From Neckera pumila (lineage: Eukaryota > Streptophyta > Bryopsida > Hypnales > Neckeraceae), in assembly GCA_963969595.1 (NCBI GenBank), contig OZ018414.1, positions 24,039,660-24,103,659 of the forward strand: a DNA stretch of 64,000 nt, given 5' to 3'. This document shows positions 1 to 50,537 of this stretch, in pieces. A program made the position numbers and the translations under genes. The notes beneath the pieces were generated by a model, which ran no database searches, was not told the DNA's origin, and was given only the letters and a program-made list of their open reading frames with translations. Within the stretch, counting starts at the first letter, position 1. Every line of letters starts with the position of its first letter.

Positions 1-544
1 TTTCCCCATGATTGAAGCTATAGATGAAAAAACTTGCCCATTGTTTTGGGCCTATAATTTTGTCTTTTGTGACTTCTTCTATCCAATAGGGGATTTCTAA
101 CTCTAAATTTCCAAATTCCATAGAAAACAGTTTGTTCTTATACTTTTCAATTGACAAAAATGTAAAGCCAAATTTTTTTGTCTTTCCCATTCCCTATGAA
201 GGCTCATAGCTCACTACAATAAGGAAGCAGGTACATAAAGCACCCATTTATGAGTTGGAAATCAATTTCGAGAAGTCAAAATTCTTGAATATTTTTTAGA
301 AAATTTTCCTTGAAAGACAAGTGAAATTGGCATCTAACCTATGTCACTCCTCAAAATATATACTAGTTGTATATTACTGGTGCAATGAGAGGGCAAAGTT
401 TCCAAATACTGTACATTTCAAGAGGTGGAGGACGTTATGGACCGAGCGTTTTGTGGACCTCTACCTTAGTATGAGGGAGTCCAGGGGTCAAACTCCGGGC
501 TTCGGATCTTCTTATGTCCATTTTATAACCCCGGCGGGGATTTC
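1..544. other. Intergenic, nothing recognised
   Basis: AT-rich DNA that becomes more GC-balanced after about 410. One 75-codon frame (321-548) has no recognisable similarity. Confidence 0.5.
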
Positions 545-554
545 ATGAGAGTGT

Positions 555-604
555 TCGGGGGTCTGTCCGGGGGTCAATTCGGGGGTCAATTCGGGGGTCA
601 ATTC
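555..604. repeat. 12-bp G-rich tandem repeat upstream of the peroxiredoxin-like gene
   Basis: A CGGGGGTC core is repeated, three of the copies as GGGGGTCAATTC. It lies 175-225 bp before the chosen ATG, in the open upstream frame. Confidence 0.85.
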
Positions 605-778
605 TCCCTATTCATTGCTCCTGTAATGCCAAGTGGAGTCTTCTCTGACCAACAAGTCATGATCCTCACATCTGGTTCTTTCCTAGATACAGTTTCTGGT
701 TTCCTAGATAAAGAGGCACATCTCCCTCGTCCCAAAGATTTGCAGTGGAGCATTAACCACAAACTGGGACATACAGCC

Positions 779-3700
779 ATGGCCATGACCTTGGCTATGG
801 CAGCTATGGCGACCACTCTTGTTCAGCCCTTCTCCCGTTCATTTCCACTCTGCCGAAACACCGCTCCTCATGTTTCTCGGACATCGAAACTCTCGTTACA
901 ATCGAAGTTTACAGCATCTTCTTCGTTTTCGTTTTTGAGTGATTCTCTGGCTCGCCAATTTGCTTTCACGAGACGCGTTTCGAGGCGGAAGCTCGTCGGG
1001 GTTGTCCAGGCGAAACGAATGGCGTCGTCAGAGACTGCTACTACTCGCGCTCCGGATTTCAAGGTATCATGTGGCGGTGTATAAAATTATTTTTAAAGCT
1101 TCGGTTAATCGATCTCAGTAATGGTTGAAGTACGCGACAGTCTAAGTCAAATGCCGTCTAGTCTATTTAGCTGAGGCCTTGTGTGTTTTTATCAAGTCAT
1201 AATTTCATAGAAATTTGAAAGCAGAAATGGAAATTACTGTGTTGTTGACCTCATGTTGAGAAGTCCGATCTTAGGGAATCGGCTTGTGACGGACTTTGAG
1301 CTTCTGAGGGACTCGACGTTCTGAGGAATTAGATGAGATTGAGTCTACTCGGAGGTGTTATAACGGGCATTGGTTGAAGATTTTTTCATTGTTGTCATGG
1401 TGTGATAGAGGACTGTCGTGTGTTAATTATCCTGTCTATGACGTTCATCTTGTCTTATGACGATCGCACTTAGGGTTTCCTGAAGTTTCGCACATCTATT
1501 ATTGCTGCTAACTTAATGTTTGTGGATTTCTTTGCTGGAACTATTGCACCGAATGTTTTGGCATATGATTGAGACCAATTGACTTGTGAGCGATATCAAA
1601 ATTTTACATTTGAGATTGTGATAATTGACTGCATAGAGATGATGCAAAGTTTTAATCCATGAGTGGCCTTCAAAGTTCTGTCCAATGCGTATGTTCTCGT
1701 ATATGAAATAAACTTTTAATTGGAACTTTCTTAGCGTATGGTGATTGGAGATCGGACAGTTAGCTTGAATATTTTGTGACCGTATCGACTTTTGGAACTA
1801 TAGGGGGACCTCTAGTATTTCTGTTTTGCAAGAGAAGCATTGGAATTTTTGGATGGATAAACTAACCCTTATTTTACTGGTGGATGGATTATCTGTGTTG
1901 CTACAGCTAGTGGAGCCTTTAACTGGAAAAACATGGGAATTGGAGGAATTTGAGCCTTATCCAGCTCTGTTGGTAATTTGAAATTTCCTATCTGTGAGAT
2001 GTAGACTTTTGTCTTTTCTTATGAGAACCTCATGACAGGCACTTATCAGGATTTGCTTCCTTGTGCAATCTTCGTCTCTCGATTAGTGCTACTCATTTTT
2101 GGATTGAGGAATTAACTTTTGGATTCGACTTGATGCTTATCTGAACGTTTTTTGATTCAGGTGATGTTCATCTGCAACCATTGCCCATTCGTGATCCACC
2201 TTAAGGAAGATATTGTGAAGCTTGCAGCCAACTATTTGCCGGTAGAATTCCTTGCAAAAGATTTTTATCATGCGATGATTTTTATCTGGTGTACTTTGTT
2301 TGACTTTTATTATTTCTCTTCCCCTTTCTATTTGCTCTCTTCTTACCTGCTCATGATTCTCTAAATGTGGATCAGTTCTCACAACTCATTTGATGTGTTT
2401 CTGGTGTGATTTTGTTTGCAGAAAGGGCTCGCAATAGTGGCTATATCTTCAAATTCTGTTGTTTCACATCCAGAGGTAGGTGCCTGTAGATAACTACATG
2501 GATCAGAGGCTCCATTTGTGAAGGAGTGTGGAAGTTTGTCAACTAGCTTGTACCTTGTCTGCCAATCTGTAAGGAAACGTTTGCTGATAACGTAGTGCCC
2601 GTGCCTGATTTATGTGTGGAAAGCGCAGGATGGCCCTCAATTTATGGCCGAGGAGGCTAAAACCTATGGATATCCGTTCCCATATTTGTATGATGAGGTA
2701 ATACCCTTGGCTTTGCAACTTTCTGGTCATGTATAGAATTTTGGATTTTGCAGTTTTTTTCTCTGGGTTGATTTGAATTAGAAAAGGGAAGATATTGCCT
2801 TCGTGATAGTTCAAGATATTACCTTCGTGACATGGTGAACTTTGAATTTCAGACCCAAGAAGTTGCGAAGTCGTATGGAGCTGTTTGTACACCTGAGTTC
2901 TATCTGTACAAAAAGGTATACTGCTCTGCATTTTCTTATGATGAGCATTTTTGAATTTAGAGCTGAGAGTAAGAAATCATATTATGGCAACGGCTTTAAT
3001 TGTGTTTCGCTCAGTTCTGGATGGGAGTCTGAAGGTTTTGAAGAGCTAAGGTGGATATGCGTCTGATAAATTAAGAGTTCTTGATGTGTCTGTCGTCACC
3101 CATGCTTACATGAAGGACTTTTGTAGATGCATTCAACGTTTGCGAATGTGTATGTCTCTTAATCGTTGTGGATGAGCCCTTGGCGGAATTTGTGTAGGCC
3201 AGACATTTCATTGTACTCCTTTACAGTCATTTTAGTGAGGCATATCAATTTTTTGTAATGGATTTCATCTTCAACTGATTGATGGGTTCCACTTATGATC
3301 AGGATGGGCGGAGACCCTTTGAATTAGCCTATCATGGTCGATTTGATGAGTCCCGGCCTCGCAGTAACGTTCCAGTTACCGGCAGGTGAGCATTTTATCA
3401 TTTGTGTTTACTTGTGAAGATCGATAGCACTGGACCAGAGACCATTGAAAACTGGTCGTAACTTCCGTAAAACATCATGGTTTTTTAGGTTTCATTGGGG
3501 GGGTTCTCCATGTTACTCACAAATTTCTGCTTCGTTGGCTCAGGGACATTCGAGAGGCAATAGATTGCGTTTTATCAGCAAGGCCCGTTACTGTTCCGCA
3601 AAGGCCAAGGTACTATCCCACTGAATCACTTAGCGGTCCCAAGGCTTTTACTTTTTTATTCGCGAAGCAGATTTGTAATTGTTTTTAAACAGAAGTTACA

Positions 3701-27479: not shown

Positions 27480-28460
27480 TCCGGCCGCCCCACATCATCC
27501 TCCACAGAGTACAATCTGATCTTGTAATTGAGCGCCATCATCCATGCCCCTAAACCCTGCGTTCAACAAATCGAATCTGTCATTACACCACGCAGCACAT
27601 CTGGATCCAAAACGCAAGAGCAACGCACCCTAAACCCTGAAAGGTAAACCACAAATTAACAAGAGCCTGAAGACCACAAGACAACCGCAATACAAAACCC
27701 TACGTTGCCCAATTCAGAGACTAGCAATACCTCAAAGCAGCAGGTGCCAAGATGATCGCAGCGACCCCAGGCACCATGTGACGCTGTCACGCAAGAAAAA
27801 GACACAGAAAAAACAATTCCCCAAACCCTGAAGTCGTAAAGCCTAAAACCAAAACACAGATCTGCACCAAACCGTAACGGATTTGCAACAAAACGTAACG
27901 AGGGCTGCTTGGGGCTGCTCCCAACGAACCAACCGTAGCCAAACAACAAAATTGATTGCACAAACCCGTAGCCAAACAACGAAATTGATTGCACAAACCG
28001 TAAACCCTACACGCACAATACAGATCCAACGAAATTGATTGCACAATCGTAAACCCTACACGCACAACACAAATCCGCCCCAAACCGTAACGAGGGCTGC
28101 TGTGGGACACCCGAAACTGAACGGGCGCACAAACCGTAAACCTCGTATCCAGCAAACTGAGGTCCTTGCACAAACCCTCCACCTCGTCCAAAGCAAATTG
28201 ATTGCACAAACCCTCCACCTCGTCGACAGCAAACTCAGGTCCTTGCACACGCCACAGCCGGATTCTTGCACACGTCGGGAGATTGCACCCAGTCCCGACC
28301 AATTGAACAAACCCTAAACCTCTTCCTTGCAAACTCAGACGCAACGGTCGGCTTCAAGTGAACTGACCCCTAAGCCGAAAACCCCATCACTGAGCCAGAT
28401 TGAACTGACCCCTAAGCGTAGTAAACCATCACTGAGTACCCTAAACGAAATCTGCACAAT
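27480..28460. repeat. GC-richer block with scattered telomere-type motifs and internal duplications
   Basis: ACCCTAAACCCTG, AAACCCTAC and GTAAACCCTACACGCAC recur many times. So do AAATTGATTGCACAAAC (three times), GTAACGAGGGCTGCT (twice) and CAAACCCTCCACCTCGTC (twice). A minus-strand open frame of 185 codons (28344-27787) is built from these repeats and looks like a by-product. Confidence 0.6.
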
Positions 28461-29079: not shown

Positions 29080-31230
29080 TCCTAATCATCTAAATCAGTT
29101 TTTTTTTTGTAGTGAATAGAATTTTCTTAAATCAAATGTCTCTTTTGTGTAGTGAGTAGAATATTTTTTATTGGGTAGAGCCTATATGATTGGAAATAAA
29201 AGTATGAGTGAATCACTTTAAAGTGTGATAGAAAATGTGCTAGTATATTATTGGATAATGCGTATAGAGTAGGTTATTTTTTGGTAACTTGTATTTATTA
29301 GTATATTTGGTAGAGCCAAGGGATTTTTGTTTCAAAATATTACAGAGGTGGTTTGAAGAGTGTATAATAAGTTTGTTATTCTGATATTGTTACCGATGCC
29401 ACTATGATTAAATCTTGAAAACAGTGATTAGAAAATTTCCAAGGGTTGTGGAAAAAGTGATTAGAAAAATTCCATAGTCATCAAAGATTTGGGCAATTTT
29501 GTGTTGCATATACATTGTAGGCATTGTAGTGACAATTTATGTCTTTGTCTAGATTACATTCTAAATGGGATATTTGAAAAAGTGGCATTGTGAGATGATA
29601 TATTATATGAACCTTTGATTTCCCTCTTGATGTTGAATGATTTGTTATTGTATAGTATTTAGGAAATGTTGATTTTATCTATTCTTTTGTAATATTGGTG
29701 TAGTAGAAATAAGTTGTGGAGTGATTGCATGAAAGACCGTATTGAAACATTGTCACAAACGCAGTGCCGAAGCTTCATTTTGCAATAACTTTAGAAGCAT
29801 GACTCATATGAACTTGAAGTTTTTACTGGACATTATTCTTATGAGTTTAATCATATCTCATATTTTTCAAAAGTTTTCAAAAATCAATTTATATTTAAAA
29901 ATCATTTAAACTAATTTGTCACGTTTTGAGTTTTAGGGTTTTTACTATGTAAGGAGTCCCCTAATTTAATGATTTGGAGCTGAAATTTCTATGGTCTATT
30001 CCCATAGTAGAAACTGATGTTTCTACCAAGGGACATAAAAAAATATTTTATTTTATATCCTCTACGTCCATGCAAAGAAGGCTCCCTTGTGCATGCAATT
30101 TTGAACATTGAAGATGGTTTTAGGATCATTTTTTTGGTGAAATCTCTTTACAATGAAGTCTTCTCAAATGGTATTCTTTAGGGTTTTTTTAAATTACTTT
30201 TCCTATTTTTTACAAATTATAATGTAAAAGTATGTATTTTCTTGCAATTCTGCACTTTTCTAGTTCTCTTATTTTAAGAATTTTTCTTTTCTTTTCCTTC
30301 ATAGGGTATCTTCTTCTTCTAGGTGTATACATTTCTTGTATTTTTCATAATTTTTAAATTTTTTTTTTCTATTTTATAGTATTCCCCCCAAAATGGCTGA
30401 AAACAGCCAAAGTAGAACAAAAACAGAAGGTCATTCTTGCAATGACCCTGTGGTTACACATGGTTTGTAATTGTTGCAGGAGCTGTAGGAAAGATGAGGC
30501 CAACTACTAGTACTTCCAATTTGATGTGGGCCAATCTATATGATAGCTTTATACTATTTACAAATCAAACTTGTAAGTGATTTTCAACTGCTTTAGGACT
30601 GCAAGAAATTCAAAATCATGTGGTGGTCCTTGCATTCTCATTCTTTGAAAGTCAAGCCTTTACTTTCTCCAAATGTGGGGGCTTATCCTAGTTCAGAGAG
30701 TTGCAACAAATCTACGCAAGTGTGCTAGTCCGTTTCTTGAAAAAATCCATGGTCATAGCCAACTATTTGCAGTTCCAATTTGATGTGGGCCAATCTTTAT
30801 GTCAACTTTATACCCTTGACAAATCAAGCTTGGGAGTAATTTTCAACTACTTTAGGACTGCTAGAATTTCAAAAGCAGATGGTGGTCCTTGCATTTTCAT
30901 TCTTTGAAAGTCAAGTTAATTTTTCTCTGAATGTTGGTAGCCTATCCTAGTTTGGAGAGTTGCAACAAATCAACACAAGTGTGCTAGTTAGTTTCTTGAA
31001 AATGCCATGGTCACAGCCAACAACTTGTACTTTCAATTTGATATTGTCCAATCTTTATGTTTGCTTTATAGTACTGATGAATCAAGGTCCTAAATGATTT
31101 TCAACTACTTTAGGAATACAAGATTTTCAATATCAAGTTGTAGTCTTTGCATTCTCATTCTTTGAAGTCAAATGTTCACTTTCTTTGAATGGTGGTGACC
31201 TATCCTAGTTTGGAGAGTTGCAACAAATCA
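29080..31230. repeat. Complex local repeat, left part (one A module and three B modules)
   Basis: The A module (about 29080-29560, with a less conserved tail to 30480) matches 45940-46375: GTAACTTGTATTTAT, TTACAGAGGTGGTTT. B modules start near 30498, 30750 and 31008, about 255 bp each, with GCCAACTA, TTTGATGTGGGCCAATCT and GAGAGTTGCAACAAATC. The third is cut by the 14.65-kb insertion. Reading frames inside are not conserved between modules. Confidence 0.7.
31221..31230. repeat. Left target-site duplication of the 14.65-kb element
   Basis: CAACAAATCA, identical to 45884-45893. It lies inside the GAGAGTTGCAACAAATCA stretch that recurs in uninterrupted sister repeats near 30705 and 30960. Confidence 0.75.
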
Positions 31231-31360
31231 CAGGGTTGCTAGCAGGCAAGCATGTGAGCGTCAGCTTGTGAGCCTGTGAGCCTATGAGCCTGTGAGTGAG
31301 AAAATTTTGGTGGTACAATATGACATGAAGGACCTATAACCGTGGGGGTTAGAGTGTTCT
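31231..31360. repeat. Left terminal inverted repeat region of the 14.65-kb element
   Basis: It starts CAGGGTTGCTAGC, then has repeated GAGCCTGTGAGCC motifs, then GGACCTATAACCGTGG near 31331-31346. The same order of blocks, reverse complemented, occurs at 45665-45883. The terminal match is imperfect, which suggests an old element or an asymmetric TIR. Confidence 0.65.
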
Positions 31361-32379
31361 ATATTTCAAGAAATGCAAGACCATTTTCTTCAAACTTGAG
31401 TCACTTTTAAAAATTATTTTTTGAAATCTTATTTGCAATAATAAAATTTGGTAAGTTTTGAATGAAATCACTTGAAGGGGTCGACATAGTCCGTTAAAAA
31501 CCTAAAGATATTGAATTAGAATAAATTGGATAATTAATAGTTTGATTTAGGATCTTGCGTATCATTTGTTTTGCACTTAATTAATTTATGTAGTTTTAGA
31601 ATTTTGCTCATTAATAAGTGCCTTAAAATTATTGCAATTCCCAATTGCCACAAATGCATCACATGCTATATGAGTTCAATTCTTGCATTACTCACAATCA
31701 TAGAAATTGTTGTACGGTTTAGGGTTATAAATTAAGGTGCTTCAGTTCTGAACCCCTTAGCGAGCAAACATATACAAATTCCAATCTAAATTTACAAATC
31801 TCCAGAAAATATTAAACACCTTTGATTAAATGCCAATTTTATTTGCCTTTCAAGAATAAGTTCTTGGAAAATATTTCAAGAAGTCCCAACCATATATGAA
31901 GTTAAATTTGGAAAGAAGTACAATCTAACAATTTTAGATAAACTAAGTGAGTGCTTGAAGGTCTTCACAAAAATGTTATGTTCCAAACCTACTTTCTAGA
32001 GAACAATAATGATTATGGAAACCGCAAATAAAGGCTACAAATGCAAGTCCTAGCTGAAAAGAGAACATTCTAGTAGTTGTTGAATTTCAAAGCATTGTTA
32101 TCATGCAGCCAAAAAGCATTGTTATTATGCAACCGAAAAGCATTCAAAGCTATACCCTTAGATTGAAATTGAAGCCCAATTTATGAAGAAATTAGTATGT
32201 AATAAAGCAAGTCAAACAATGAATGTGGTCCAAGAAATTAGGCAAGTTCAGCATACCATCATCGGGTCAACTGCATGTGAGATTTGGATAAATACATACA
32301 AACCAAGTCAAAAAACTCTTATAGTTTTTGTAGATGCTGAAAAACATATCACATTTCCAATTTGGACAATTTTTCCAAA

Positions 32380-32474
32380 AGTTATTGGCCTCCAAAGTTT
32401 GCAGCCAGTCACCGTAGATTTGTTCGATTCGTCCGTGAACAGTAAAATTCTGTCCGATATGACAACCGTGCTCT
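32380..32474. repeat. Half copy of the 148-bp foldback at the 3' end of the DGNHR gene
   Basis: TTGGCCTCCAAAGTTTG and GTCCGTGAACAGTAAAATTC match the loop and right arm of 37609-37756. Read on the minus strand the gene's last exon continues open into it, replacing whatever C-terminus it had. Confidence 0.7.
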
Positions 32475-33063
32475 CCAGACAATCCGCTTCCTTCTTCTCT
32501 TTTGTGTTTACCAATTTGACGAGGCGGGCCATTTTTTTTTTGTCATTGGTCTCCCTTCTCGTAATGGCCCTTTTCTTTTGCTTCTCTGTCAAGCTTGCAA
32601 ACTCATCCACTTCCAAATCAATGACACCTTTGCCTTCCAGAGATGCTCGCATCTGTACCTCTGATGGATGAGTGAAAGTGATGGGGCAATCCAAATACCA
32701 ACCACCACCACTGAGATGAGCCGTTGTGGATGTACGCATTTGGCTTGGAGTATACATGCTGGCTCCAAAACTGCAGTCTAACCATGTAGGCAAAAACGGA
32801 GGGAGGTCGTTCCTTGCAATTGCACCTTTTGCTTCAAGCTCAAGCTTAAAGTAACTAAAATTCAAAACAAACTAATCTATATAGAAGCTTCAAAAACTGA
32901 AAATCAAAATCATAACATTCTCTTAACAATTATTTGAATAAAGAGAAGCCATGCAACCAAAGACCAAAGAAAAAAATAGTGAAAGGTCAGAATCCATGCA
33001 TTTACTTATTTCAACCTTCATATCATCCAAGGTAGCCCAGAAAAATGGGAACAAAAAATAGAA

Positions 33064-33452
33064 CCAAAATGGGGAGTACCTTGATGTACCTCTTGGAACA
33101 CCGTCGGATCCGATGGCGGTTCTAGAGATCCCTCAGAGTACCCCCGTTTCTGGTTCTCCTTTTCAATTCCCAATTTTTTGCCATTCATTGGATTTTTTTA
33201 TTTATGAGAACCAAAAATGGGGGTACCTCAAGGTACCTCAAAAACCACCGTTGGATCCGACGGTGTTTTTTGAGGTGCTTTGACCTACCCCCTTTTTTGG
33301 TTCTCATAAATAAATAAAAAAACAAATGGCAAAAAAAATTGGGAACTGAAAAGGAGAACCAAAAATGGGGATACCTTGAGGTATCTTTGGAACCACTGTC
33401 GGATCCGACGGTGGTTCAAGAGGTACCTCAAGATACCTTCATTTTTGGTTCA
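33064..33452. repeat. Nested triple palindrome in an intron of the DGNHR gene
   Basis: Three units of about 100 bp (33064-33160, 33206-33305, 33354-33451) are each palindromic around CCGTCGGATCCGA-like centres and end in GGTTCTC/GAGAACC. The two spacers are inverted copies of each other (AATTGGGAACTG versus CAATTCCCAATTT). The whole block is therefore itself a palindrome centred on the middle unit. Confidence 0.8.
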
Positions 33453-36400
33453 TGGAAAAGAGAGGACAAAAATATTAATTCAAATAAACCTTGAAGAAAT
33501 ATGCATAAATTCCAATAATAGTAGCCATCCACAAACAATGAATTAAAGTATTGGTAATTAATGAAATCTTACCGGAACAAAATCCTTCAAACAACCAAGT
33601 TTATGCCCTTGAATATCATGAATGAATCCCCCTTCTTGAATTTGTTGTTGCCTCTCAAGAATGGACCAAATCCTTGGTCCCAGAGTCTCTTTCGTCATCC
33701 CTCGATGTACTCTACCAGGAACTCTGGCTGCAGCGGGGCTCCGTAGTTTATGGGAATGTTGTCTTGCTTTACAATATCATCAAAGTACTCCATAGCTGCA
33801 TCTTCAATTTGAGAAGGCAAATCATAGAAATTAGAAAAAAATATTTAATCAACTTATTCATACATATCTATGATTAACATTATATATGTAGATGCAACTA
33901 CTATTAGTACATAATCACTTACCCCTACACAAAGGACGCATTTGTTCAAGAATGGTCCAAGGTGAGTTTCAGAAACAGGCCTTGCCGGAAACTTCCTTGC
34001 TTCCCGTGATGGATATGAGGAGTTCCACCACTGCAAGAACTTCACCTTGTGAATGGATGTCGTGTAACATGTTGTTACCATCTGTAGTTTCTCCAAAGTC
34101 ATTTTTGGAACCTCATTCAAGGTCCAGTGCTTCTCCACCTGCAACAAAAAACAAAATATTTCCATAACAATGATCAAATGCATATTCATGTGATGAGATT
34201 TAATTACTCTGTCAAAAATGCAGCTCGCCTCTTGCAGAAATCCGGATCCATTCGTTGGATGTGCGACTGCCAACAGTTTACCTATCTTTGAGTTCAACCT
34301 CTGATTCTTCTCTTTTGCTCCCACTTGCATGGCATGAGCAACGCCCTCATCAGACTTGTTCTCAAATTCTATTATCTTGTTGTACTTCCGGACGCCGGCT
34401 GCATCCGCTGCCTGTGCAATTTCTTGCTGGAAAATACAAAGAGCTTATAAACTGAACAATACATGAAAATTAAAATAACAGATTATATAACAATACATTT
34501 AAAAGAACACCAAGAGAAATTCTTACCCGGAAAAAAAAGGAGGTGAATACTTCTTGAGGCATAGAGTACCATTTTTTGGTAGGCTTTGCAAAACATTGTT
34601 TCACTTCTGACGGCCTCAACATTTCATTGAACTTCTCAAAAGGAAGAAGACTGTACTTTTGAACACGATATAAATTATGAACCAAATTTGTTTTCACATG
34701 AGAGTCCTTTGTCGCTCTACTTGTCAATGAACAATATGGGTCAGTTTTCTCAAACAGAATGCAACATAAGAAATTTGAAATGGTTTAAAATAATCATAAA
34801 TGCAGAAATAAATGACAAGTGAGAACTTACTTGTTTATGTCATGCATGACCTGCATGACTAACTCTGTTTTTCCTCTTGTTTCCAACAAAATGCAGTCCA
34901 CAAGGCAATGGAATGCTAGGTTTAGGGTTTAACCCTAGTAATGTAACTCATCCATGCATGAATTCTGTGATTGCCGTCGCAGACAAAGAACTTCATGTTC
35001 TTCAAGAAATGCAATAAAGGCTCTGACTCCAAATACTCGTTGAATACATCATTCTTCTCTTTCCAGATATAATTCCAACGGTTCATTTCGTTGTCAATGA
35101 ACACTGATGATTCTCCTCCCTCATTTGTGATTGACACATAAAATACTGCTACTCCCTCGCGGTATCCAAAGACGAACTCGGTCTCCAATTTCTTCACATC
35201 GCTAGACAATGTTGGCATTGCAACAAGCCGGTAGAGCAGAATGTGAAGCCAAGACAACTTGTCTAGCTTCATTCTCAACATGCCAATGGTAGCAACGCAG
35301 TCTACCTTCTGAAGTTGACGAAGCTCATCCTCCAACAATTCCTTCTCCTCGTCTTCTTCCACGTCCTCTTCCATAAATGGGGGTCCTTCGATATCTGGCT
35401 GAACTTCTTTACCAGTATTAGGAGTTTCCAACACTTTCTCCTCTTGTGTTTCATTCAAAGGCGTAATATCCATCTGAAGACCAGTAGACAATGAAGTATG
35501 TTACAATAAAATCCGTTTAAAAAATAATCAAAAACTCACTTTGTTAGTACAGTGAAGTATCAAAAGTTCAAAAGCAATTTAGATCAAAATTTAAATAGTA
35601 TATTTTGCACTAAAGAAGAAGCCAAATAAAACCATGGCCTTGACGTACAAAAATAGATGTATTCGAGAATGCAACCAAGCAAACCCCATCTATGTTGACC
35701 CTATATTGACCGATTCATCTGAGTCAGAGCTCAGGTGAATAATGACAATGTCGTGTCTAGACGTACTAGCACTACAAGCACATTGGCACAAGTCTTCCTG
35801 CAGAGGACTACAAACAGAAAATGAATAATTCGATGAAGAACTATACTCCGTCTCCGAGCTTTCTGATGAAAACACAGGCTGCCTTCCCTTCCCCTTTTCC
35901 TGAGGACCAAAGTGATTCTCCCATGGCCGTTTCTTTGAGTCTCCTGGCAGATCACAAGCATCCACAATTGCACCAGTGCTTACCAAGTCAGCTTCGACAT
36001 CTTCCTCTTTGTTGGAGTCGCTAGAGATGTCCACATTTGCTTGATCTAGAGTCACAGGCTCTGGTTGCTCTCCACACTCCTCGTTGGGAACAATTGGATC
36101 AGGGACAATATTTTGTGGCCCCAAAGATGAGGATGCCTGACCAACGTGGCCATTTTTGTTTTGCATCTACAAGTTCAAAACAATTTATCAATTATACTTC
36201 CGTAAATATTTTGGATTACAACTAAAATGTCTAAAGAATATTTGTTATAATCATAAATTGAACCTTCAAAACTACATGCAGAGTTGTGACAATTGAAGAT
36301 GTGACAATATTTGTATCCATGAGTGCAAATTGAACCAACTCTACTAATTGACAAAAAATAAATGACAAGTTCATCATATTCTGAAGTGACTAATTCTTGA

Positions 36401-36952
36401 ATAACAAGTACCACGTGTAAATGTAAAATAGAAAATTCTATACTATTTATTCCTTAATGGATACCAAAAGAAGGATTAGCCCTAACCGCCAGTAAAAGGC
36501 TTGTCGGATGGTACTATTAAGGGTGGCTACGATTGCCCTTTCTTCCGGTGTCCAACAACAAATGAACAATCTAGAATTTCAAATTAATTCACATCACAAT
36601 ATTGTTTACCTTAAAGTACCTAGGAAATAATATTAGGCGCTTATAAAATACAAGGACATATTTAACAAAAGCTAATATCATCAAGGCGTGCTTCAATTTC
36701 ATTGAAGATAAAATAAAAAATAAATCAAGTAAAACGTAATGTATATTACTAAGATTCTTTCCCTTTTTTAAAACTTAAATTAATCAAATAATCAAAGAAT
36801 TCAATGAATTATCAAAATTTTGATAAAAACCAGATTCAATATCAAAAAGATTGAGAGAACTTGGAAAAGATGAAAACAAAACAATAAATTAGTCAATAAT
36901 CTCAAAAGGAAATAAGATATATTCTGAAATTTGAAAACACCCTTTAATTTTC

Positions 36953-37012
36953 GGATCCGACGGTATCTTGAGGGGTGCCAACGGATACCCTCAAATTTGG
37001 TATCCGCGAAGG
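36953..37012. repeat. Partial member of the GGATCCGACGG palindrome family
   Basis: GGATCCGACGGTATCTTGAG is followed by GGATACCCTC and GGTATCCGCG. It shares the centre with the 33-kb units but only one arm is clear. It lies in the long presumed first intron of the DGNHR gene. Confidence 0.45.
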
Positions 37013-37247
37013 AACAGATCGTTTTTCTCTTTTAAACTTGATTTTTGAACACCATCGCAAGGTGGTGTATCCAATAAGTTAATAGCGTCTTCTTCCTGTC
37101 TAGCTAGTTCTCACCACTGCGATCATGAAAAAATGTTTGCAAATCCTCTTGATTGTACAATTGCGGGCAATCAAAGGCAAACGCAATCAGGCAAATATTC
37201 ATCCTTAAACTGAAATTTCATCTCCATTTTGTCATGGACCCTAGGTG

Positions 37248-37345
37248 GGTACCGATTCCAGGGGTAACTTCGGACACTGCCGCAGAGAGCTTCGGATCTG
37301 ACGGCCGTTTTTCGCGTGTCTCGAGTTACCCCTGGAATCGGTACC
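37248..37345. repeat. Palindrome with GGTACCGATTCCAGGGG arms
   Basis: GGTACCGATTCCAGGGGTAA at the left is matched by its exact inverse at the right end, with a centre carrying GGATCTGACGGCCG. The form resembles the 33-kb units but the arm sequence differs. Confidence 0.75.
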
Positions 37346-37608
37346 TGCTTGATTCAAATTTTTTTTGAGTGGCTGTTTGTTTCTTAAGAGGCACCGAACT
37401 TTTTTCAAAAATACAGTGACAGCTCGTTAAGCGAAAAGAAATCACACTGTGCTGGCTAGAAATAAATGTTGATTGCATGGAATCATTGACAAATGGTTCG
37501 AACTCTATCCGCACAAAATGCCTCACACGCAAGATCTCAAGGTAACCACAAACAAGAGTAGTTGCCCCTGAAGATGAAGCGACTCCAATCTTCCAAACCC
37601 AAAAAATG

Positions 37609-37756
37609 CACGGTTGTCATATTGGACAAAATTTTACTGTTCACGGACAAATCAAACGAATCTGCGGTGATTGGCTACAAACTTTGGAGGCCAATCACCG
37701 CAGATTCATCCGATTTGTCCGTGAACAATAAAATTCTGTCCAATATGACAACGGTG
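37609..37756. repeat. 148-bp near-perfect foldback repeat
   Basis: The left arm starts CACGGTTGTCATATTGGACA and the right arm ends CCAATATGACAACGGTG, its inverse apart from single changes. The loop is the short ACAAACTTTGGAGG. A half copy (loop plus one arm) lies at 32380-32474. Confidence 0.85.
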
Positions 37757-40604
37757 AAAAAATGGCTACAAAAAAGGAATCCATGAATTTTAGGAAACAC
37801 TGTCACACTCAAAAATCAAACTATCACTGAGCCTCCATTTCATATCAGGAAAGGAAGCATCATCAAGTAAACACTATCATCGAGTAAATACTAGGAAGCA
37901 TCATGAAGTTGCGAAGTGTTGGCTGCCCCAGTCAAACACGTACAAATGTAAAAGCACCAGTAATGGCAATGCTCTGTCTCCCATCCATAAACCTGAAATC
38001 TCTCTATGAAGCTCCGACTAACTCCCAGAGCATATCCGCATGATTCCAAACCTCAAAAAATCAAGCTCGTCACAGCAAAAGGAAAGAATTCAAGCTAAAA
38101 CTAGTGAGCTCCGAATCTAGCGCAATGTTCAAGAGTTGGGAGCAAATGGATTTGGCGACAGATCGCCGCAATAACATGGAGCAACACTAGGTAGAGAAAT
38201 CTGGAGAATTTGGTGCATGGGATGCTACATCTTGTTGTGGAGGACCTTCAGGGTGTCTTTGAGATGTCAAAGCTTTCAATGCGAGGAGAATTGTGAAACC
38301 ATGCTCAAAATTTGAAGGTCAAAAGATCATAAATGAAGAGTACCTCGACCGCAATGGACTCATCCGAAACTCTTCCAGTTTGAATCGCCAAAGACTATCG
38401 TCCTTGCTCGTGTTTGTGTCTGCGGGTGCTTCTTGTGTTTGTCATGTTGTCCGTCGCTTCCTGCAGTTGGACACAAGGATTCAGTTCACCATCTTCACAA
38501 CTACAACATCTAAGCAAAGGGGACTTGCGGGAAGTAGAACTTTGGTGATAACCAGGGGTGTGGCTAAGAGGTCAGGGGTTCCCCTGGTTTTGGGGCGCTG
38601 GAGCGGTAGCACCACGAGAATTTCGGCTCGGCATGCATCAGCCTAAACTTAGAAAATCGCTCCGAATTTTTTTGTTGTCATTTAGAAATATCTTGATCTA
38701 AAATTGCACCCAGATCCTATAAGATCATGCGAACAGATACGGTTTCTATTCTAATGCGGGATTTCAGAGAAGGCCACAATGTATAACAACTAGGATGATC
38801 TAGTAAGCCGATTAAGAGAAATGAAGGCATGCAAGTTTGAGACTCATCCATTTGCCATGTAAAAAAAAAAAAATCAAAGTTTCAACGCGCCCTGAGAGGA
38901 TATGAATATATTGGCCCTTTAGAAGATATGAATATTTTGACCACTCTATGAAATGTTTATTAGACTTTCTATTATCTAACAACTCACAAGTGTGCGGAAT
39001 GTCATAACTGTACATACTTTGATTTTAGAATTACTATATAGAAGAATAATAAGGAACTAAGTGGAATAAAACCTGACCCTAAGTAAGATCGCTATGGAGA
39101 TGGTCATTCATTAGAACATCCATCAAAATTATTTTTTTTACCTTACTTTTGACGGTTGCAGGCCACCAAGTCCTCCAATTTCAGCTTAAAATGTGTACTT
39201 ATAGGTTTAAAATAACAATTAGAAGCCTTCAAAGTAGCCAATGTCATATAAGATGAATATCTTGAAAACAAGATGTACAACTTGTTATTGAGAAATTACA
39301 AATGAAAATGCAGTTTGTGAGGAAAACTATAATTACGTTTTCTAGCCTTCACCAAAGCATAGATGATGCACAAATTAATGAGCCATATTTCTTAAGGAAA
39401 TATAGTAGTATCCTTTCCTATTTTCTCTGTAGCTATGGATTTATGGTTTCATTATGGACGTCATTGTATTGCACTTGCAGTACATGAATCTAAACTCATT
39501 CACCTTCTGTGAATATCATATTGAAGTTTGAATATAGAAGTTGGATAACTTGGATGATAGAATGCATTTCAAAGAAATGGAAAGTAATAGAGACAATCTT
39601 ACATTCAAGATGTTGTGCTCTCCTCCGTCGTTTTGAACGTTAGTGTCCTCCACCACTTTGTGCTCCGCGTATAGCCTCTGGACTCCAATGTCGTCATGAC
39701 TGCTACTACCTCCTCCTCCAAAGTGTAGTGATTTGTATAGTTCGTCTGTTGTCGCCGCACTAGTCTTTGATACCACTTTCTTCCCTCAAGTCATCTTTAA
39801 TCTCTTAAGTGATTTAAAAGACAAAAAAAACAAAGAACTATGTTTCTTTCTCTTCTTTGAGTTCTCGAAAAAAACAGAGAGCAAGCTATGGTGTTCTAAA
39901 AGCATGGGGAATAGAAGAGTACATGAACAACCCTCTGCAAGAAAACTACTCCAATACTTCCGCAAACAAATGAAAATGACTCCTTCACAAAAAAGGTGCC
40001 AGTTTATAGTTGCGCAAATGCCCCGCACGTCAAGCGTAATCAATGACATCCTGTTGTAGGTTAAAGATGGAGGCTTCCCAAATAATTGACAACTCTGATT
40101 CATAACAGATAGTTCAATATGCCGTCAATCTAAGGAATTTTTTAGCTGTCAGCTGTAAAACTACACTGACAATGTCTACTCCCTTCATGTTGCATTAGAA
40201 GTGGAGGATATATCATTGAAAATATCGGAGCACAACAAATTCATGTGCTTGCACTTTAAAGGTAATCAACAGGGCCGCCTATTTTTATTCAAATTCTTAC
40301 TAGAATTATGGAGAGCAAGTATTTATAGTGCATGCGCTTAGAAGTACTTGACATAGCCGCCTTGTCTCACGTAAATTCTTTCTACATAATGGCCTTCATA
40401 AAGATGGAGGACGGCAGCATGACCACAATTGTATCATCATGGAGGATGAATTTGAAAATGAACTTCTTACATCATGGGTTCATCCCCCGAGATCAATTGT
40501 CCCTGATACTTATCCCCCCTCCAAAATTCATATTTCACACCAAGGACATAGTGCTTTCACTTTTGCTTCCCTTATCGTGTGTCCTGAAAGCATGGCCTAG
40601 CTAA

Positions 40605-43600
40605 ATTCAAGTAGATGGTCATGAGGTTCCATTGGTATTTTCGGTAGATGAAGGAGGGCGTGCTAGAGTTTTGAGCCACCTCCTTCATGTATGCTTTAGA
40701 TTTTTAGAGTCGTCAATCTATGTTGAAGAAGAGAAGAAGTCTGAGTTTGGAGAGTTACAACAATCTATCTCGGTTGTCAAGTCCGTCGGAGAAGAAGGTC
40801 ACAGCTGGTATTTGTCTTCGGGGAATTATAGAGCTTATGGACTTCCTTTGTCTATGTTAGGTGCATCTATTGAGATAGTAAGCCAGCAGTCAGATAACTC
40901 CACAATGAACATGCCATATATGTCTCAAACTGTTCTACCTAGTCCCTCTTGTCAAGTGTTTTTAGTCCTCGGAAGAAGCACAATTCTCCATAAAGTGAAG
41001 GTTGAAAAACTGGATACTATTATAGAGTTGTCTAGCGAGTCAAAAGGAGAGTCCCCACATGTGACACTTCAAAAACAATCTTGCCGAATGCCGCCTGTAC
41101 CATGCGACAACTCCCTTGGGAGGTGTTTATTGAGAACACCATCAAATAGTCCTGGACAATCTAGTTTCTCACAACCTCCACTGCATCCAACTCCAGTTGA
41201 TCGAGTTAGTATAATGGACTGTTTGAGGAGGCGAGCCAATATGTATTGTTCACGCAACGAACTCTCAACAATGGATGTGAATAATGTGAAGCATCATGAA
41301 GTTCAATTCCTTCCAGCAATATTCAACGGAAACGTCATCTTTGAACTACCTCCGTGCCGGTCATCTTTGTCTTTCTCGGCAGCAAAGAACTTGGAAGGAA
41401 TGGACACGTGATATGACGGACATCCTTGGTGCAAATTGGTGACGATGAACATTAATAACACCGACAATTTGAAATTCCGTAAGTCATACTGCGCTTGCCA
41501 TCTTATTTGTGAGAATCCGGAGTGTGATTACTTGAAGAGGGCTTCTAAGAAAAATAAAACAGAGTGGAGCGGTTACACAATGTTCTCTTTTGTAGTAGGA
41601 GAGAGTCCTCCAAAGGACTCTTCTCTAGTTTGCAAGCTTTGTAGGAAATCACCAACGTGCTTGAGTACATGCAATGCTAGGATGTACTACAGCTATACAG
41701 ACAATCTTAGAATGAGTAGGGCCACCATTCACTTGTGAGATCATGGTCACCTAGTTGCCAAAGGCATGTATAGAGATTCCACGGAAGAAATTTGTGGACT
41801 GATTGCAAAGCAAGTGGCCAAAACACCAACGGCCACCAACTCTGCAATTGCTCTTTCTTCTAATAAGGAGTTTCTAACAAATTATCTATTTCACAATGGA
41901 GAAGGAGAGAAGGAAATGTTGAAGGCGGAGGAGCTTAAAGAGGTCATAGACCGTTTCCAGTTCTTGAGCAGTCCAAACGTATGCAATGTGATATCTTCAT
42001 TTCACTCAAACAATTGGGGAAGTGTCATTGATAGCATCATGACAATGAAGAAGGAGTGTAGGTTCAAGTACATTCACAATAGTGTCTTCCCTGGCCAAAG
42101 GAAGGAAAAGGTATACGTTTTCAAGATGCTTACAGAAGGACCTGGAAATGGAGTGGATGTGGTGAGGCCATGCAATCTGGAGGGAATCTTCAGAATGTGT
42201 GGATGATGTTTGACCATGTGAAACATGTAAAGGAGTGGACCACAATGGCTTGTCACGTGTACAATCTGGAGTACAAGAAGGTCATGACCATTTCAACATG
42301 CGACATGCAATCTGAAGACACCGAGATCCAGATACAATTTTGGAATTGTTTAAACGCAGTCATGTCAAAACATGGAGTAGATAACCCAAACTTCAAGGGA
42401 TTCATGGTAGATAGCGCTATCATCAATTGGAATGCAGTCCGTATTGTCTGCAGATTTGGTTCTGCCAATGAAAAAATGGAGAATCGTGAAAGGACATGCT
42501 TATTGCACTGGAGGACTTCTCTTCAGAAACACACTCAAAACCACATCAAGGAGGAATTTCAGCAGCAGCATAATACACTTTGCAAACAATATAAAGATGC
42601 AAAAACTATGGAAGAGGCTAAGACACGCTACCTTGCAATTTGGTTGTGGTGGTTATCCTCTGGATTTGCCACTGAAGATGCGCTTCATCACTTGGACCAT
42701 TGGCTTGCATTTTGGCATTTTAGATACCGGCAATGGGGAGGCTTCATGCAGATGGTATATTTACGTAGAACTTTAAGTTCTAATTTTTCTTTTGAGGATT
42801 TTTAATAATAGTGTGTTAAAAAAATTGTGATTTGAAGAGCGTTTCCACTTGGAATTTAAAATGTTTTTTCTTTATTTTTTTATTTTTTATTCCCACCCGT
42901 GACCAAAATCAGGGGTACCTGAAGGGAGTCAAAATACTACCGTCGAATCCGACGGTAGTATTTTATCCCCCTTGTGGTACCTCTAATTTTGGTCACAAGT
43001 GGGAATAAAAATGGAAGAAGGACATCTAGATTTATTTGTTAGCTGAAATGTTTCTTTGTAAAGGAAGAATATATATAAAATGCTATATTTCTAAAAGTAA
43101 AATGTTGTTTAATTGTATTGAAATTTATGTGGACAATTTTTTCTAGTTGGCAGTGGTTATGAATTTTTGTACATGAAACTTTACTTATGAGTCTGTTCTT
43201 TGGAAGGTTTCGCAGGATTTGACCTTGGAGGAGCTGGTGAACATGCCATCATGCAACTTGTTTGAAACAGTTCATAACAAGTGGCTTCAAATGTCTGAAA
43301 ACCAAGGCAACAATTGTTTGACGCCACCTGCGATGACAGTATTCGTGCATGGACACAAATGATAAACTACCGCGCTTATTTAAAAGGACATGCATGTGGA
43401 TCTGGTCCATCCAAGTGGGAGTTAAAGTTGAGGGCTACAAGGCAAAGTAGAGACCCAAAGAAAATGGCAGAGGCATTGAATGCATAGCCTGGATCAAAGG
43501 GTGTTGGAAGTCACATACCGCATTTAGAAGGAGAAGAGATCTTTGGAAGTACAAAGAAGAAGCTGGACGTTCCAATTGCGATGCAGGAGACTCACATCAA

Positions 43601-44601
43601 CCTGACAAATTCAACTTTTTTCAACCTCATATTTGAATGAGGTCCAATATGCCTTTTGCAAAGACTTCACAGAGCAAAGGAAAGGAGACTGAGTTTCAAC
43701 CATCCAAGCATGTTACAATTGCATTTGAAAGTGACTGCGATACGTTGAAGTGGCACATTGTAAGGATCAACCACAAATCAAATGCGAAATGTCAAGCTCA
43801 GCAATAGACATTAAATATAAAGTGCACTGCCAAAATTGTGAGAGGACGGAAGGGAACCCCTGCTCCCACCTATTGTGGTAGAAAGGAAGATTATGGGACT
43901 AACTGAGAGGTGGTGGCAGACTTTTGGTTTTGTTGGGATGACATTGAATGATGTGTGAAAGGTACAAAGTGCAAGTACGTTATAGATCGGCCCGAGGTTC
44001 CAGACATTTGGCCTATTTTACTGGGACCAACCTCAATCGAGAGGAGACATTGTATCTACAACATGCTGGCTTCCACCTCCAAGAACGTCCTACGTTGTCA
44101 CCGCGACGACTCTTCAATATGTCAAAAGTATTCAAGAGTGTCTTTATGATCAACCGCAGCCACAAGATGCAGGTGTGTATCCAACGGTGAGGAACAATCA
44201 AACCATAAGGTGAAATGGAAATGCACCAACTATAGAACAACGGAACAAGCGGAAGATTGCTGGAAACGTTAGAGGGCAAATAGTGGGAGTGACGTTGCTT
44301 CTTTTTCCAGGCCTAGGTGCAATAGTGTCTTTGGAGACTGGGACAGACCCTAATAGAAATGTGTATCGAATTACACTAGATATGTTTCCGTTGTGCACAT
44401 GCCCGGATTTTGTTCAAAATGTCAGTTTCTGCTATTGGAGGGCGTCATGCATATGTAAATTGCAAGCATCTGTACTACTTGTATCGGTACTTCTGCAAGA
44501 TGGACATTCATGATGACCAATTCATTCATAAATCCAGTTATAGCTTCAATGAGTTGAAGCTTTTTTTACTTCGAGCAGGGATCACCACTGTTTCACAGTA
44601 G
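40605..44601 (+). pseudogene. Mutator-like (MULE) transposase with SWIM finger, multiply broken
   Basis: Seen: long coding stretches follow each other on the + strand. 40605-41411, 41412-41738 and 41739-42206 share one frame, broken by TGA at 41409 and 41736. A frameshift near 42180 leads to 42207-42754, which ends at a GT donor. An acceptor at 43215 opens the next exon, which has a frameshift near 43317, a TAG at 43485 and another TAG at 43805. Domains: a Cys-rich cluster (CACHLICENPECDY then LVCKLCRKSPTCLSTC), a core with CDMQSED and FKGFMVDSAIINWNAVR followed by RTCLLHW (the C-x2-H-W seen after the second catalytic Asp in MULEs), and a SWIM finger whose halves CTCPDF (about 44395) and NCKHLYYLYRY (about 44460) are in different frames. 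Known: MULE/FAR1-type transposases have zinc finger, DDE core and SWIM in this order. Inferred: once the transposase of the enclosing element. A further coding-like piece (EDEFENELLTSWVHPPRS) at 40440-40590 may be an upstream exon. Confidence 0.62.
42883..43018. repeat. Palindrome in the transposase intron
   Basis: Arms TTTATTCCCACCCGTGACCA and its near inverse flank a centre CTACCGTCGAATCCGACGGT. It lies wholly in the intron between 42754 and 43216. Confidence 0.8.
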
Positions 44602-44988
44602 GGGGGGCCAATAAAATTCTTTCGTGTACGTCATTTGTACAAGCTTAATATACAATTGGTACAGTTGAAATCATTTGAAGCATTTGGAATGCAACATGTT
44701 TATATATGTATGAAGTATGAAAATCATATCATTTGTCAAACATTAGGCAATATTAGGGTATGAATTGCCAAGAACTATAATGATCACCTTGTATGTAGTA
44801 ATGGACATATGAATATCAAATAAGCTTTTTTCATTTGTTTTTGGTTCCCTTTTTCAAATTTTTTCCAATCTTTTTTTCTTTTTCATTTTCTAATTGTTTT
44901 TCCCTTACCTAGTTACCTTTCTATTATTTTTCCAATCTTTCTCCTTTTGGTTTAACTTTTTTTCCATTCGATATTCCATTTTTTATTT

Positions 44989-45009
44989 CTTAACCCTAAA
45001 CCCTAAATC
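44989..45009. repeat. Short interstitial telomere-type repeat
   Basis: Two and a half copies of the plant telomere unit (AACCCTAAACCCTAAATCC) lie near the right end of the 14.65-kb element. Confidence 0.6.
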
Positions 45010-45664
45010 CGTTTTTTTCATGTTTTTGTTTATTTTTTGGAAAGACATCTTCCACATTTTGTAAGGAAAATCTCAAGCCGTAGTCACTCCTTCAAATTGG
45101 AGTATATTTGCGAGAAGTCCACGAGACTAGAAGATGATGGCTTGGGTTCAAATACCGCGAGGCCCCAAAGTTCCAGGGTTCCTATTCATATGTCCCATAA
45201 CAATTGGCATTCTAGAACGCGCCACTACAAGAGGTGTCATGTTGGATGGTCATACATGCCGGAGGACCGTTGGAGGGAATAGCCTTTCTCAATCATTATG
45301 TGGAGAATTATATTCCCCTTCGGTTCTCTAACATTTTGTTGAAAATACTAATTGAAGCATGTATAGGTAAAGCACGTATAGAATAATAAACAAAGCATGT
45401 ATAGACTTTGCCTCAATTGATTTTGGGGCTTTTATCATGTGCTTTTGAAATCCATTCAGACCCTAAAACCTTAAGGTTAGATTCAATGAGAAATGACTCC
45501 CAACTTCAACACAATAGTGTCATTTATTTTTCTAAATTTTTTGGGACAACACTGTAATTACAACCAGACTTCTCCATTTTTTTAGAAGCCAAGGTTTCTT
45601 CAAAACCTTAGCCTCCATAAGAAATGACTCTCAATCTCACCATTTGGAGGATTCTTTTCTACTA

Positions 45665-45883
45665 CAAAGAACTTGAACACTACAAAAAATATTTACTAAT
45701 CCACGGTCATAGTGTATACAGTCATAGGTCCCAAATTTTCCATTAATAGCAAAAAAAATTCTGTTAATAAATTAAAGAATTTGGCAAAAAAATGGAAATT
45801 TTTTTTTTCAGGCTCTAGGCTCACAGGCTCCACGCTCTACACTCACAAGCTCACGGCTTTAAGCTTGCACGCAAGCGTCATTG
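45665..45883. repeat. Right terminal inverted repeat region of the 14.65-kb element
   Basis: It contains CCACGGTCATAG (about 45701-45712), ATAGGTCC, AGGCTCACAGGCTCC and GCTTGCACGCAAGCGTCATTG. These are reverse complements of the left-end blocks in mirrored order. It is longer than the left end because of AT-rich filler between blocks. Confidence 0.62.
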
Positions 45884-45893
45884 CAACAAATCA
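45884..45893. repeat. Right target-site duplication of the 14.65-kb element
   Basis: CAACAAATCA, the second copy of the 10-mer. The following AAACAAGTGTGCTAG continues the repeat that was interrupted at 31230. Confidence 0.75.
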
Positions 45894-49879: not shown

Positions 49880-50537
49880 CATTTCAACAGTGTATTCTAG
49901 AGTTTGACAGGTTTAGGTTGCAAAAAGTCTGCCTCTAAATTGGACTGGACGTGCAACTCAAGAAATTAATCCAGTCAGTTGCAAATTTACGAAAGCTTTT
50001 GCAAAGTAAATAGAATATGGCTAGAACACACAAGTGCTGCTACAAACAGCTTGCAATTGCTGAAGTTTCAAGAGAATTTGTAAATTGAAATCGATCATAC
50101 TAGCTACATTTCAACAATGTATTCTAGAGTTTGACAGGTTTAGGTTGCAAAAAGTCTGCCTCTAAATTGGACTGGACGTGCAACTCAAGAAATTAATCCA
50201 ATCAGTTGCAGATTTATGAAAGCTTTTGCAAGTAAATAGAATATGGCTAGAACACACAAGTGCTGAAGTTTCAAGAGAATTTGTAAATTGAAATCGATCA
50301 TACTAGCTACATTTCAACAATGTATTCTAGAGTTTGACAGGTTTAGGTTGCAGAAACTCTGCCTCTAAATTGGACTGGACGTGCAACTCAGGAAATTCAT
50401 CCAGTCAGTTGCAAATCTATGGAAGCTTTTGCACGTAAATAGAATATGGCTAGAACACAAGTGCTGCTACAGACAGCTTGCACGTGCTGAAGTTTCAAGA
50501 GAATTTGTAAATTGACTTCGATATATACTAGCTACAG
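49880..50537. repeat. Three tandem copies of a ~200-228 bp unit
   Basis: Units start CATTTCAACA at 49880, 50107 and 50310. Each has TTCTAGAGTTTGACAGGTTT and GGACTGGACGTGCAACTCA. The middle copy lacks a 24-bp piece (GCTACAAACAGCTTGC) present in the outer two. No coding frame. Confidence 0.9.

Follow-up and report, generated by a model that had tools for sequence, protein, structure and literature searches.

The question raised by positions 31231-45883 of the window (the whole 64-kb stretch of Neckera pumila DNA that was analysed) is whether a gene with a DGNHR motif, lying divergently beside a transposase relic, belongs to the same mobile element and, if so, what it may do there. We find that this segment is an eroded member of an abundant plant family of large transposons, the fuller elements of which pair a transposase with a ParB-methyltransferase-like gene. 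We have high confidence in the anatomy as described here. We also consider it probable, though with ample room for other readings, that the segment is a decayed large autonomous-type transposon of the Mutator superfamily (a Mutator-like element, MULE), with a ParB-methyltransferase-like protein that acts on the DNA of its own element against silencing.

A perfect 10-bp target-site duplication (TSD), CAACAAATCA, directly adjoins both ends of the segment. A 10/10 match between random pairs of 10-mers from the region occurs at a frequency of 6e-5 (200,000 pairs), and a chance duplication was rejected on this ground. The string common to both junctions is longer than the duplication, at 13 bp (TTGCAACAAATCA); 10 of these 13 shared bases were counted because the ends of other copies fix the boundary, left ends in the family being mostly CAGGGTTGC and right ends mostly CAAC[A/G]ACGC. 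The ends are imperfect inverted repeats of ~21 bp, followed inward by GAGC-rich subterminal repeats that reach ~31300 on the left and ~45810 on the right. The left flank, up to the edge of the element, is a tandem array of a 259-bp unit (30499-31230), and the flanks joined without the element align across the junction to the neighbouring 259-bp repeat unit. A sequence-only reading of this DNA had proposed the duplication, the imperfect inverted repeats and the rebuilding of a neighbouring repeat on closing the gap, and all of these held.

To place this copy in its family, the window's own genome (339.5 Mb in 18 contigs, with the window in contig C7) was searched using the left 200 bp and the right 200 bp as queries, and 41 matches to each were scored. 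None of the other left-end matches (n=40) starts before query base 10, and 7 start exactly at base 11, the claimed terminus. Among the other right-end matches (n=40), 10 start at base 11 and 6 slightly outside it (bases 1-7). The copies read comprised ten close copies, chosen for having both a left end and a DGNHR match (the presence of both is thus by construction), two divergent copies chosen from the DGNHR list (L034 and L036), and the left parts only of three further copies (L038-L040). Both ends were available in 10 of 13 long copies, including the window copy; for L009, L021 and L025, the stretches read did not yield a right end. The search with the ends for further insertions flanked by 8-11 bp duplications, which had been suggested as a check, did find them, with a TSD of 10 bp in all 10 two-ended copies (10/10 identity in six, 9/10 in three and 7/10 in one). 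Similarity to the window ends alone did not reveal the termini of L036; its TSD was picked out by testing ~7,700 position pairs close to the GAGC-rich repeats for a 10-bp duplication and is weaker on its own. The nine other two-ended copies are 16.5-18.9 kb long, compared with 14.65 kb for the window copy. L013 is nested in an L034-like element and so provides a further empty site, with a single copy of the 10-mer that flanks the insertion on both sides. L013, together with L014 and L029 (G000 C11:11396000-11418499), is inserted in the exon 6 region of this divergent element of the same superfamily.

Linkage of the DGNHR gene to the element, which had previously been inferred, is shown by lists of matches that were not selected for it. 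Of the 41 scored left ends, 24 had a DGNHR match at 1-15 kb in the right orientation, and no match was misplaced as to strand or side; of the 41 right ends, 18 had one at 3-25 kb on the expected side, compared with one match on the wrong side and zero on the wrong strand. A transposase match was in place for 17/41 left ends and 20/41 right ends. Starting from the gene, a transposase in divergent orientation lay no more than 20 kb away from 46 of 150 scored DGNHR matches (with no case of wrong strand or wrong side), compared with a mean of 0.4 in a reshuffled control (120 of the 150 positions, on contigs of known size, reshuffled 200 times). As 150 of 412 first-look DGNHR candidates and 94 of 769 transposase candidates were scored, these counts are lower bounds; the unlinked matches may be solo ends, truncated copies or elements with unscored partners. 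Within the stretches read, 11 of the other 12 long copies (9/10 close, 2/2 divergent) had the transposase, which is not by construction. For the twelfth copy, L025, the genome search placed it ~17 kb from the DGNHR exon, outside the stretch read. We also looked for the opposite picture, with the two ends never together and the DGNHR gene mostly outside such ends, and the 24 linked left ends do not fit it.

The rightward gene had been taken for a MULE-type transposase relic, and modelled structure agrees: judged by the fold of a homologue (P0010), it is a Mutator-type transposase with an ISCth4-like DDE core. Its main exon encodes an N-terminal beta-grasp-like domain, a candidate WRKY/GCM-like zinc domain and the DDE core, which carries a helical insertion and is related to IS256/MULE cores. 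The best structural match of this core is ISCth4, a bacterial insertion sequence whose transposase we take to be a member of the IS256/Mutator-type family; the likeness lies in the fold, whereas identity is only ~10%. A WRKY/GCM/FLYWCH-type N-terminal zinc domain and a C-terminal SWIM zinc finger are common in the Mutator/MULE superfamily, in which TSDs range from 8 to 11 bp. In the window, a SWIM-like C-x-C ... C-x-H lies at ~44394-44469, split over two frames, and in copy L013 the Pfam SWIM family (PF04434) matches at the expected C-x-C...C-x-H with E=0.091, below the cut-off. No Pfam Mutator/MULE family reached the cut-off (PF00872 matched 2 of 48 members, E 0.034), and a PDB sequence-profile search with the transposase gave no meaningful match. 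The main exon of the window copy is interrupted by in-frame stops at ~41409 and ~41736 and shifts frame near 42168.

For the leftward gene, the earlier description was right in part. A DGNHR gene running left is present, but the DGNHR piece is the first of ~10 exons (translated comparison of L013 with L034 and L036), and a methyltransferase-like C-terminal part, lost from the window copy, had been overlooked. The proposed ParB/sulfiredoxin-like nature of the gene was confirmed for exon 1 by structure comparison of a homologue (P0001). This assignment is made because the fold comparison was decisive, sequence profiles being only marginal: Pfam matches were weak (DUF1015 in 7/67 sequences, best E 0.002; DndB in 1/67, E 0.032), with unrelated families at similar E-values (KMP11 in 7/67, Phage_tube_C in 6/67). 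The best PDB profile match for this exon, kinetoplastid membrane protein 11 (E 0.019-0.08), was likewise marginal and was not trusted, and no match to the DGNHR exon turned up in the plasmid collection.

Exons 7-9 are METHYLTRANSFERASE-like by profile matches. Pfam PF01555 (N6_N4_Mtase) matched all seven aligned sequences, which were chosen for the alignment and include two close pairs (best E 1.1e-6; the first member scored 27.1 bits, against a curated cut-off of 26.7). Among PDB profiles, the adenine methyltransferase DpnA (5hfj, E 1.9e-6) and CcrM (6pbd, E 7.1e-4) matched; the alignments cover almost all of the domain, and motif IV precedes motif I, the order of the beta class. A DNA cytosine-N4 methyltransferase structure (8s9m, which we take to be the rotifer N4CMT enzyme) matched marginally (E 0.11), and NCBIfam matches were far below the cut-off. 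Motif I reads DCTASTG in L013, L038 and L039, DCTAATG in L036 and DCTAGTG in L034. Exons 7-10 were found in all 12 other long copies as well as in L038, L039 and L040, and no tblastn match to them (E up to 1e-3) was found anywhere in the 64-kb window. At the corresponding place, the window has ~145 bp, versus 2.56-3.17 kb holding exons 7-10 in the ten close copies, and none of the 15 other copies read shares this deletion. The frame of exon 1 is also broken in the window copy, near 34920. With the methyltransferase exons gone and both frames broken, the window copy is incapable of the function proposed for its family.

Genome-wide, a ParB exon lay 1.5-9 kb upstream on the same strand for 86 of 150 scored exon-8 matches (150 of 372 first-look candidates, a few elements giving two rows); none violated the expected strand or order, and 64/150 had no scored partner. 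The family is abundant: the ParB exon and methyltransferase exon 8 each gave at least 150 scored matches. A stretch of 160 kb (G000 C2:36593043-36752956) holds four matches to the methyltransferase exon that have the same score, with no ParB exon nearby among the matches listed; they may reflect local duplication of a single element or a cluster of genes derived from the element.

In its young lineage, the leftward gene is kept for function by purifying selection. Between L038 and L039 (synonymous divergence, dS, of 0.11-0.23), the ratio of nonsynonymous to synonymous divergence (dN/dS) is 0.04-0.08 outside exons 7-9 and 0.25 within them, and between L038 and L036 the proportion of nonsynonymous differences (pN) is 0.17-0.18 versus a synonymous proportion (pS) of 0.70-0.80 in every gene part. 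Moreover, among the 150 scored exon-8 matches, 20 (counting that of the query itself) show 96-100% identity to the query and contain no stop, which suggests recent movement or spread of that subfamily, and the system may be live.

How might such an element work? The transposase would bind the GAGC-rich ends, cut out the element and reinsert it with a 10-bp stagger. The ParB-methyltransferase-like protein would act on the element's own DNA, either by marking it or by using the methyltransferase fold to bind DNA or a cofactor without the classical reaction, and the element would thereby be shielded from silencing by the host, in the way VANDAL elements are by VANC. We give about even chances to the accessory protein working on the element's epigenetic state. 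Some observations weigh against the proposal. The catalytic motif (D/N/S)PP(Y/F/W), DPPY, is absent from all 15 copies; its place (motif IV) holds DVPE, DCPE, DCPN, DCPD or DKPE (D-x-P-[E/D/N]) in 12, YCPD in two and DCLD in one. Constraint is weak between the older copies L013 and L023, with dN/dS of 0.31 in exon 1 and 0.58 in exon 6 (for L013, only these exons were used, as its rows for exons 2, 5 and 7 fall in the enclosing L034-like element). Finally, introns were placed in the leftward gene by a permissive test without a control, the outcome of which is compatible with a fusion protein but does not prove one. As the shift from DPPY is common to all subfamilies read, it looks like a family trait and not decay; as the motif is missing, we call the domain methyltransferase-like and not an enzyme. 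That exons 7-9 encode an active methyltransferase, a view that overlaps with the other readings, seems doubtful from these motifs. We are similarly tentative about phage-like self-modification, in which a ParB-methyltransferase fusion would load on element DNA and write an unusual base mark. It would be speculative, too, to name this mark as N4-methylcytosine (4mC), N6-methyladenine (6mA) or a new product of the altered D-x-P-E site, which might shield the element from silencing by 5-methylcytosine (5mC) or mark it for replication-coupled transposition.

The same protein might instead be a direct partner in transposition, like MURB of MuDR, an element that carries mudrA and mudrB. To our knowledge, the function of MURB is itself unclear, which weakens this explanation, and we think it unlikely to be the right one. 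The divergent layout with the transposase in the copies fetched and the purifying selection in young copies would suit a partner equally, the loss of DPPY fits a reader or clamp better than a writer, and a ParB-methylase of Bacillus cereus nicks DNA, according to the relevant passages of PMC5512222. In a possible, loosely held version, ParB would clamp or nick the element DNA and the methyltransferase-like domain would recognise hemimethylated new ends, timing jumps to replication. It is less likely still that the ParB/sulfiredoxin exon and the downstream methyltransferase-like exons are two separate genes that make no fusion protein. The exon structure is predicted from sequence, exons 5 and 6 are separated by 557 bp (L038) or 867 bp (L039), the corresponding stretch of the window holds nested foldback repeats (33061-33451), and the permissiveness of the intron test leaves room for such a split. 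However, all nine junctions of L036 and L039 (and 8/9 of L038, in which one exon has a stop) accommodate in-frame GT-AG introns, those of L039 fall within 9 bases of the homology edges at 8/9 junctions, the gaps from exon 6 to exon 9 are just ~80-210 bp, and a bacterial ParB-methylase fusion is on record (PMC5512222, in part).

Taken by itself, the window copy resembles a broken fragment, and MULEs do capture host sequences as Pack-MULEs, as described in part of PMC8277862. Nonetheless, it is highly improbable that the leftward gene is a host fragment captured by chance, as divergent copies (~41-68% amino-acid identity) carry this gene at the same position next to the transposase, dN/dS between young copies is far below 1, and the gene is linked to 24/41 unselected left ends with none in the wrong orientation. 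A Pack-MULE in the strict sense, a captured fragment with no transposase, was rejected on the presence of the transposase in 9/10 close and 2/2 divergent copies. We give almost no credence to an endogenous viral or giant-virus-derived element in place of a classical transposon. ParB and DNA methylases are common to phages and other invasive elements (PMC5512222, in part), but 10-bp TSDs and inverted ends in 10/10 two-ended copies and a transposase with an ISCth4-like core argue for a transposon. A viral origin was rejected after a peptide-pattern search of a viral contig collection, in which two patterns per protein matched 125 and 229 stretches and none was confirmed as a relative of either protein.

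The sequence-only reading had called a two-gene Mutator element unusual. This does not hold for the presence of an accessory gene, which is known from MuDR and VANDAL elements, and it does hold for what the second gene encodes; this accessory gene appears to be new. The pertinent passages of PMC10398659 describe VANDAL elements as carrying VANA, VANB and VANC, VANCs as sequence-specific anti-silencing proteins, and MURA as inducing hypomethylation of terminal inverted repeats. The family described here shares with MuDR and VANDAL a Mutator-type transposase, separate element-encoded proteins and a duplication size in the 8-11 bp range. It differs in its accessory protein, which is ParB/sulfiredoxin plus N6/N4-methyltransferase-like (set beside VANB, VANC and MURB by description only), and in its 16.5-18.9 kb elements with short imperfect ends and 10-bp duplications. 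The fusion itself recalls Bce_0392 of Bacillus cereus, for which part of PMC5512222 reports a ParB domain fused to an adenine methylase, with nicking activity. Compared by description only, that bacterial or phage protein differs from the multi-exon gene with a diverged motif IV carried here by a eukaryotic transposon. Fungal DNA transposons encode TET/JBP dioxygenases, which are discussed as a counter to silencing, and SET histone methyltransferases occur in HarbingerS and MuDR families of oomycetes, as set out in sections of PMC12730594; the passages on 'methyltransferase' in that paper mention no N6/N4 DNA methyltransferase in a transposon. These fungal cases show that DNA transposons do recruit enzymes for DNA base marks, although they concern 5-methylcytosine oxidation, other superfamilies and fungi. 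The N4CMT of bdelloid rotifers is likewise a bacterial-type amino-methyltransferase in a eukaryote; according to part of PMC8885841, it is a host gene with SPPY and a chromodomain and marks transposons for silencing, whereas here the gene is the transposon's own and is without SPPY/DPPY. Titles and abstract starts in the open-access literature without preprints revealed no report of a ParB or N6/N4 methyltransferase gene in a plant transposon, and the pairing of transposase and ParB-methyltransferase-like protein may be previously undescribed.

DNA methylation is usually regarded as something done to transposons; the abundant plant family described here encodes a methyltransferase-like protein of its own. 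This makes it testable whether elements escape silencing by writing or reading a mark other than 5mC. If the self-modification proposal is true, plants would have in these elements a source of DNA-modifying enzymes of non-canonical kinds. There is also a consequence for annotation: as the methyltransferase alone among the domains scanned reached the Pfam cut-off, both genes are probably filed as hypothetical host genes.

Table 1. Features of the transposon copy and its junctions in the window.
Feature	Position	Strand	Basis
Left TSD copy, CAACAAATCA	31221..31230		sequence
Transposon copy, 14,653 bp, internally deleted	31231..45883	+	TSD, empty site, family ends
Left terminal inverted repeat, CAGGGTTGCTAGCAGGCAAGC	31231..31251	+	similar ends in other copies
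Deletion junction	32326..32471 (element positions 1096-1241)		copy comparison
Leftward exon 6 (matched part)	32533..32871	-	tblastn
Leftward exon 5, in-frame stops in window copy	33575..33808	-	tblastn
Leftward exon 4	33923..34138	-	tblastn with exon of divergent copy
Leftward exon 3	34229..34426	-	tblastn with exon of divergent copy
Leftward exon 2	34527..34712	-	tblastn with exon of divergent copy
Leftward exon 1, ParB/sulfiredoxin-fold domain with DGNHR motif	34830..35473	-	fold of homologue P0001
158-amino-acid frame upstream of exon 1, acidic, serine-rich	35690..36166	-	partly conserved in L013/L034
Transposase main exon	40605..42757	+	reading frames; fold of homologue P0010
Transposase C-terminal region, several frame shifts	43220..44600	+	reading frames, copy comparison
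Right terminal inverted repeat, CAATGACGCTTGCGTGCAAGC (reverse complement)	45863..45883	-	similar ends in other copies
Right TSD copy, CAACAAATCA	45884..45893		sequence

The 158-amino-acid frame upstream of exon 1 had no Pfam match and might represent a third gene or an additional upstream exon. Short, acidic I-I-x-L-S-S-[D/E]-S motifs occur both in this frame (-) and in the transposase at ~41014-41050 (+), and to our eye they resemble SUMO-interacting motifs. Elsewhere in the window, positions 470-1084 (+) hold a 204-amino-acid frame, the end of which, judging by eye, resembles a plastid transit peptide and the beginning of a multi-exon gene; the pieces tried downstream of it had no Pfam match. 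An Rfam scan of the window found nothing at the gathering threshold. Tandem repeats outside the element comprise a 203 bp unit (2 copies, 94%) and units of 21-49 bp, at 50054-50466 and 27859-28249. Small foldback repeats (TCGGATCCGACGGT...GGTACC...TTTGGT) lie at 33061-33451, 36951-37001 and 42884-43011, some of them within introns of both genes, and a sequence like the first one is present at the same place in other copies. A palindrome at 37608-37756, in the middle of the element, holds a piece 80-90% like 32381-32471 (at the deleted end of leftward-gene exon 6), and this local duplication-inversion could form a hairpin transcript.

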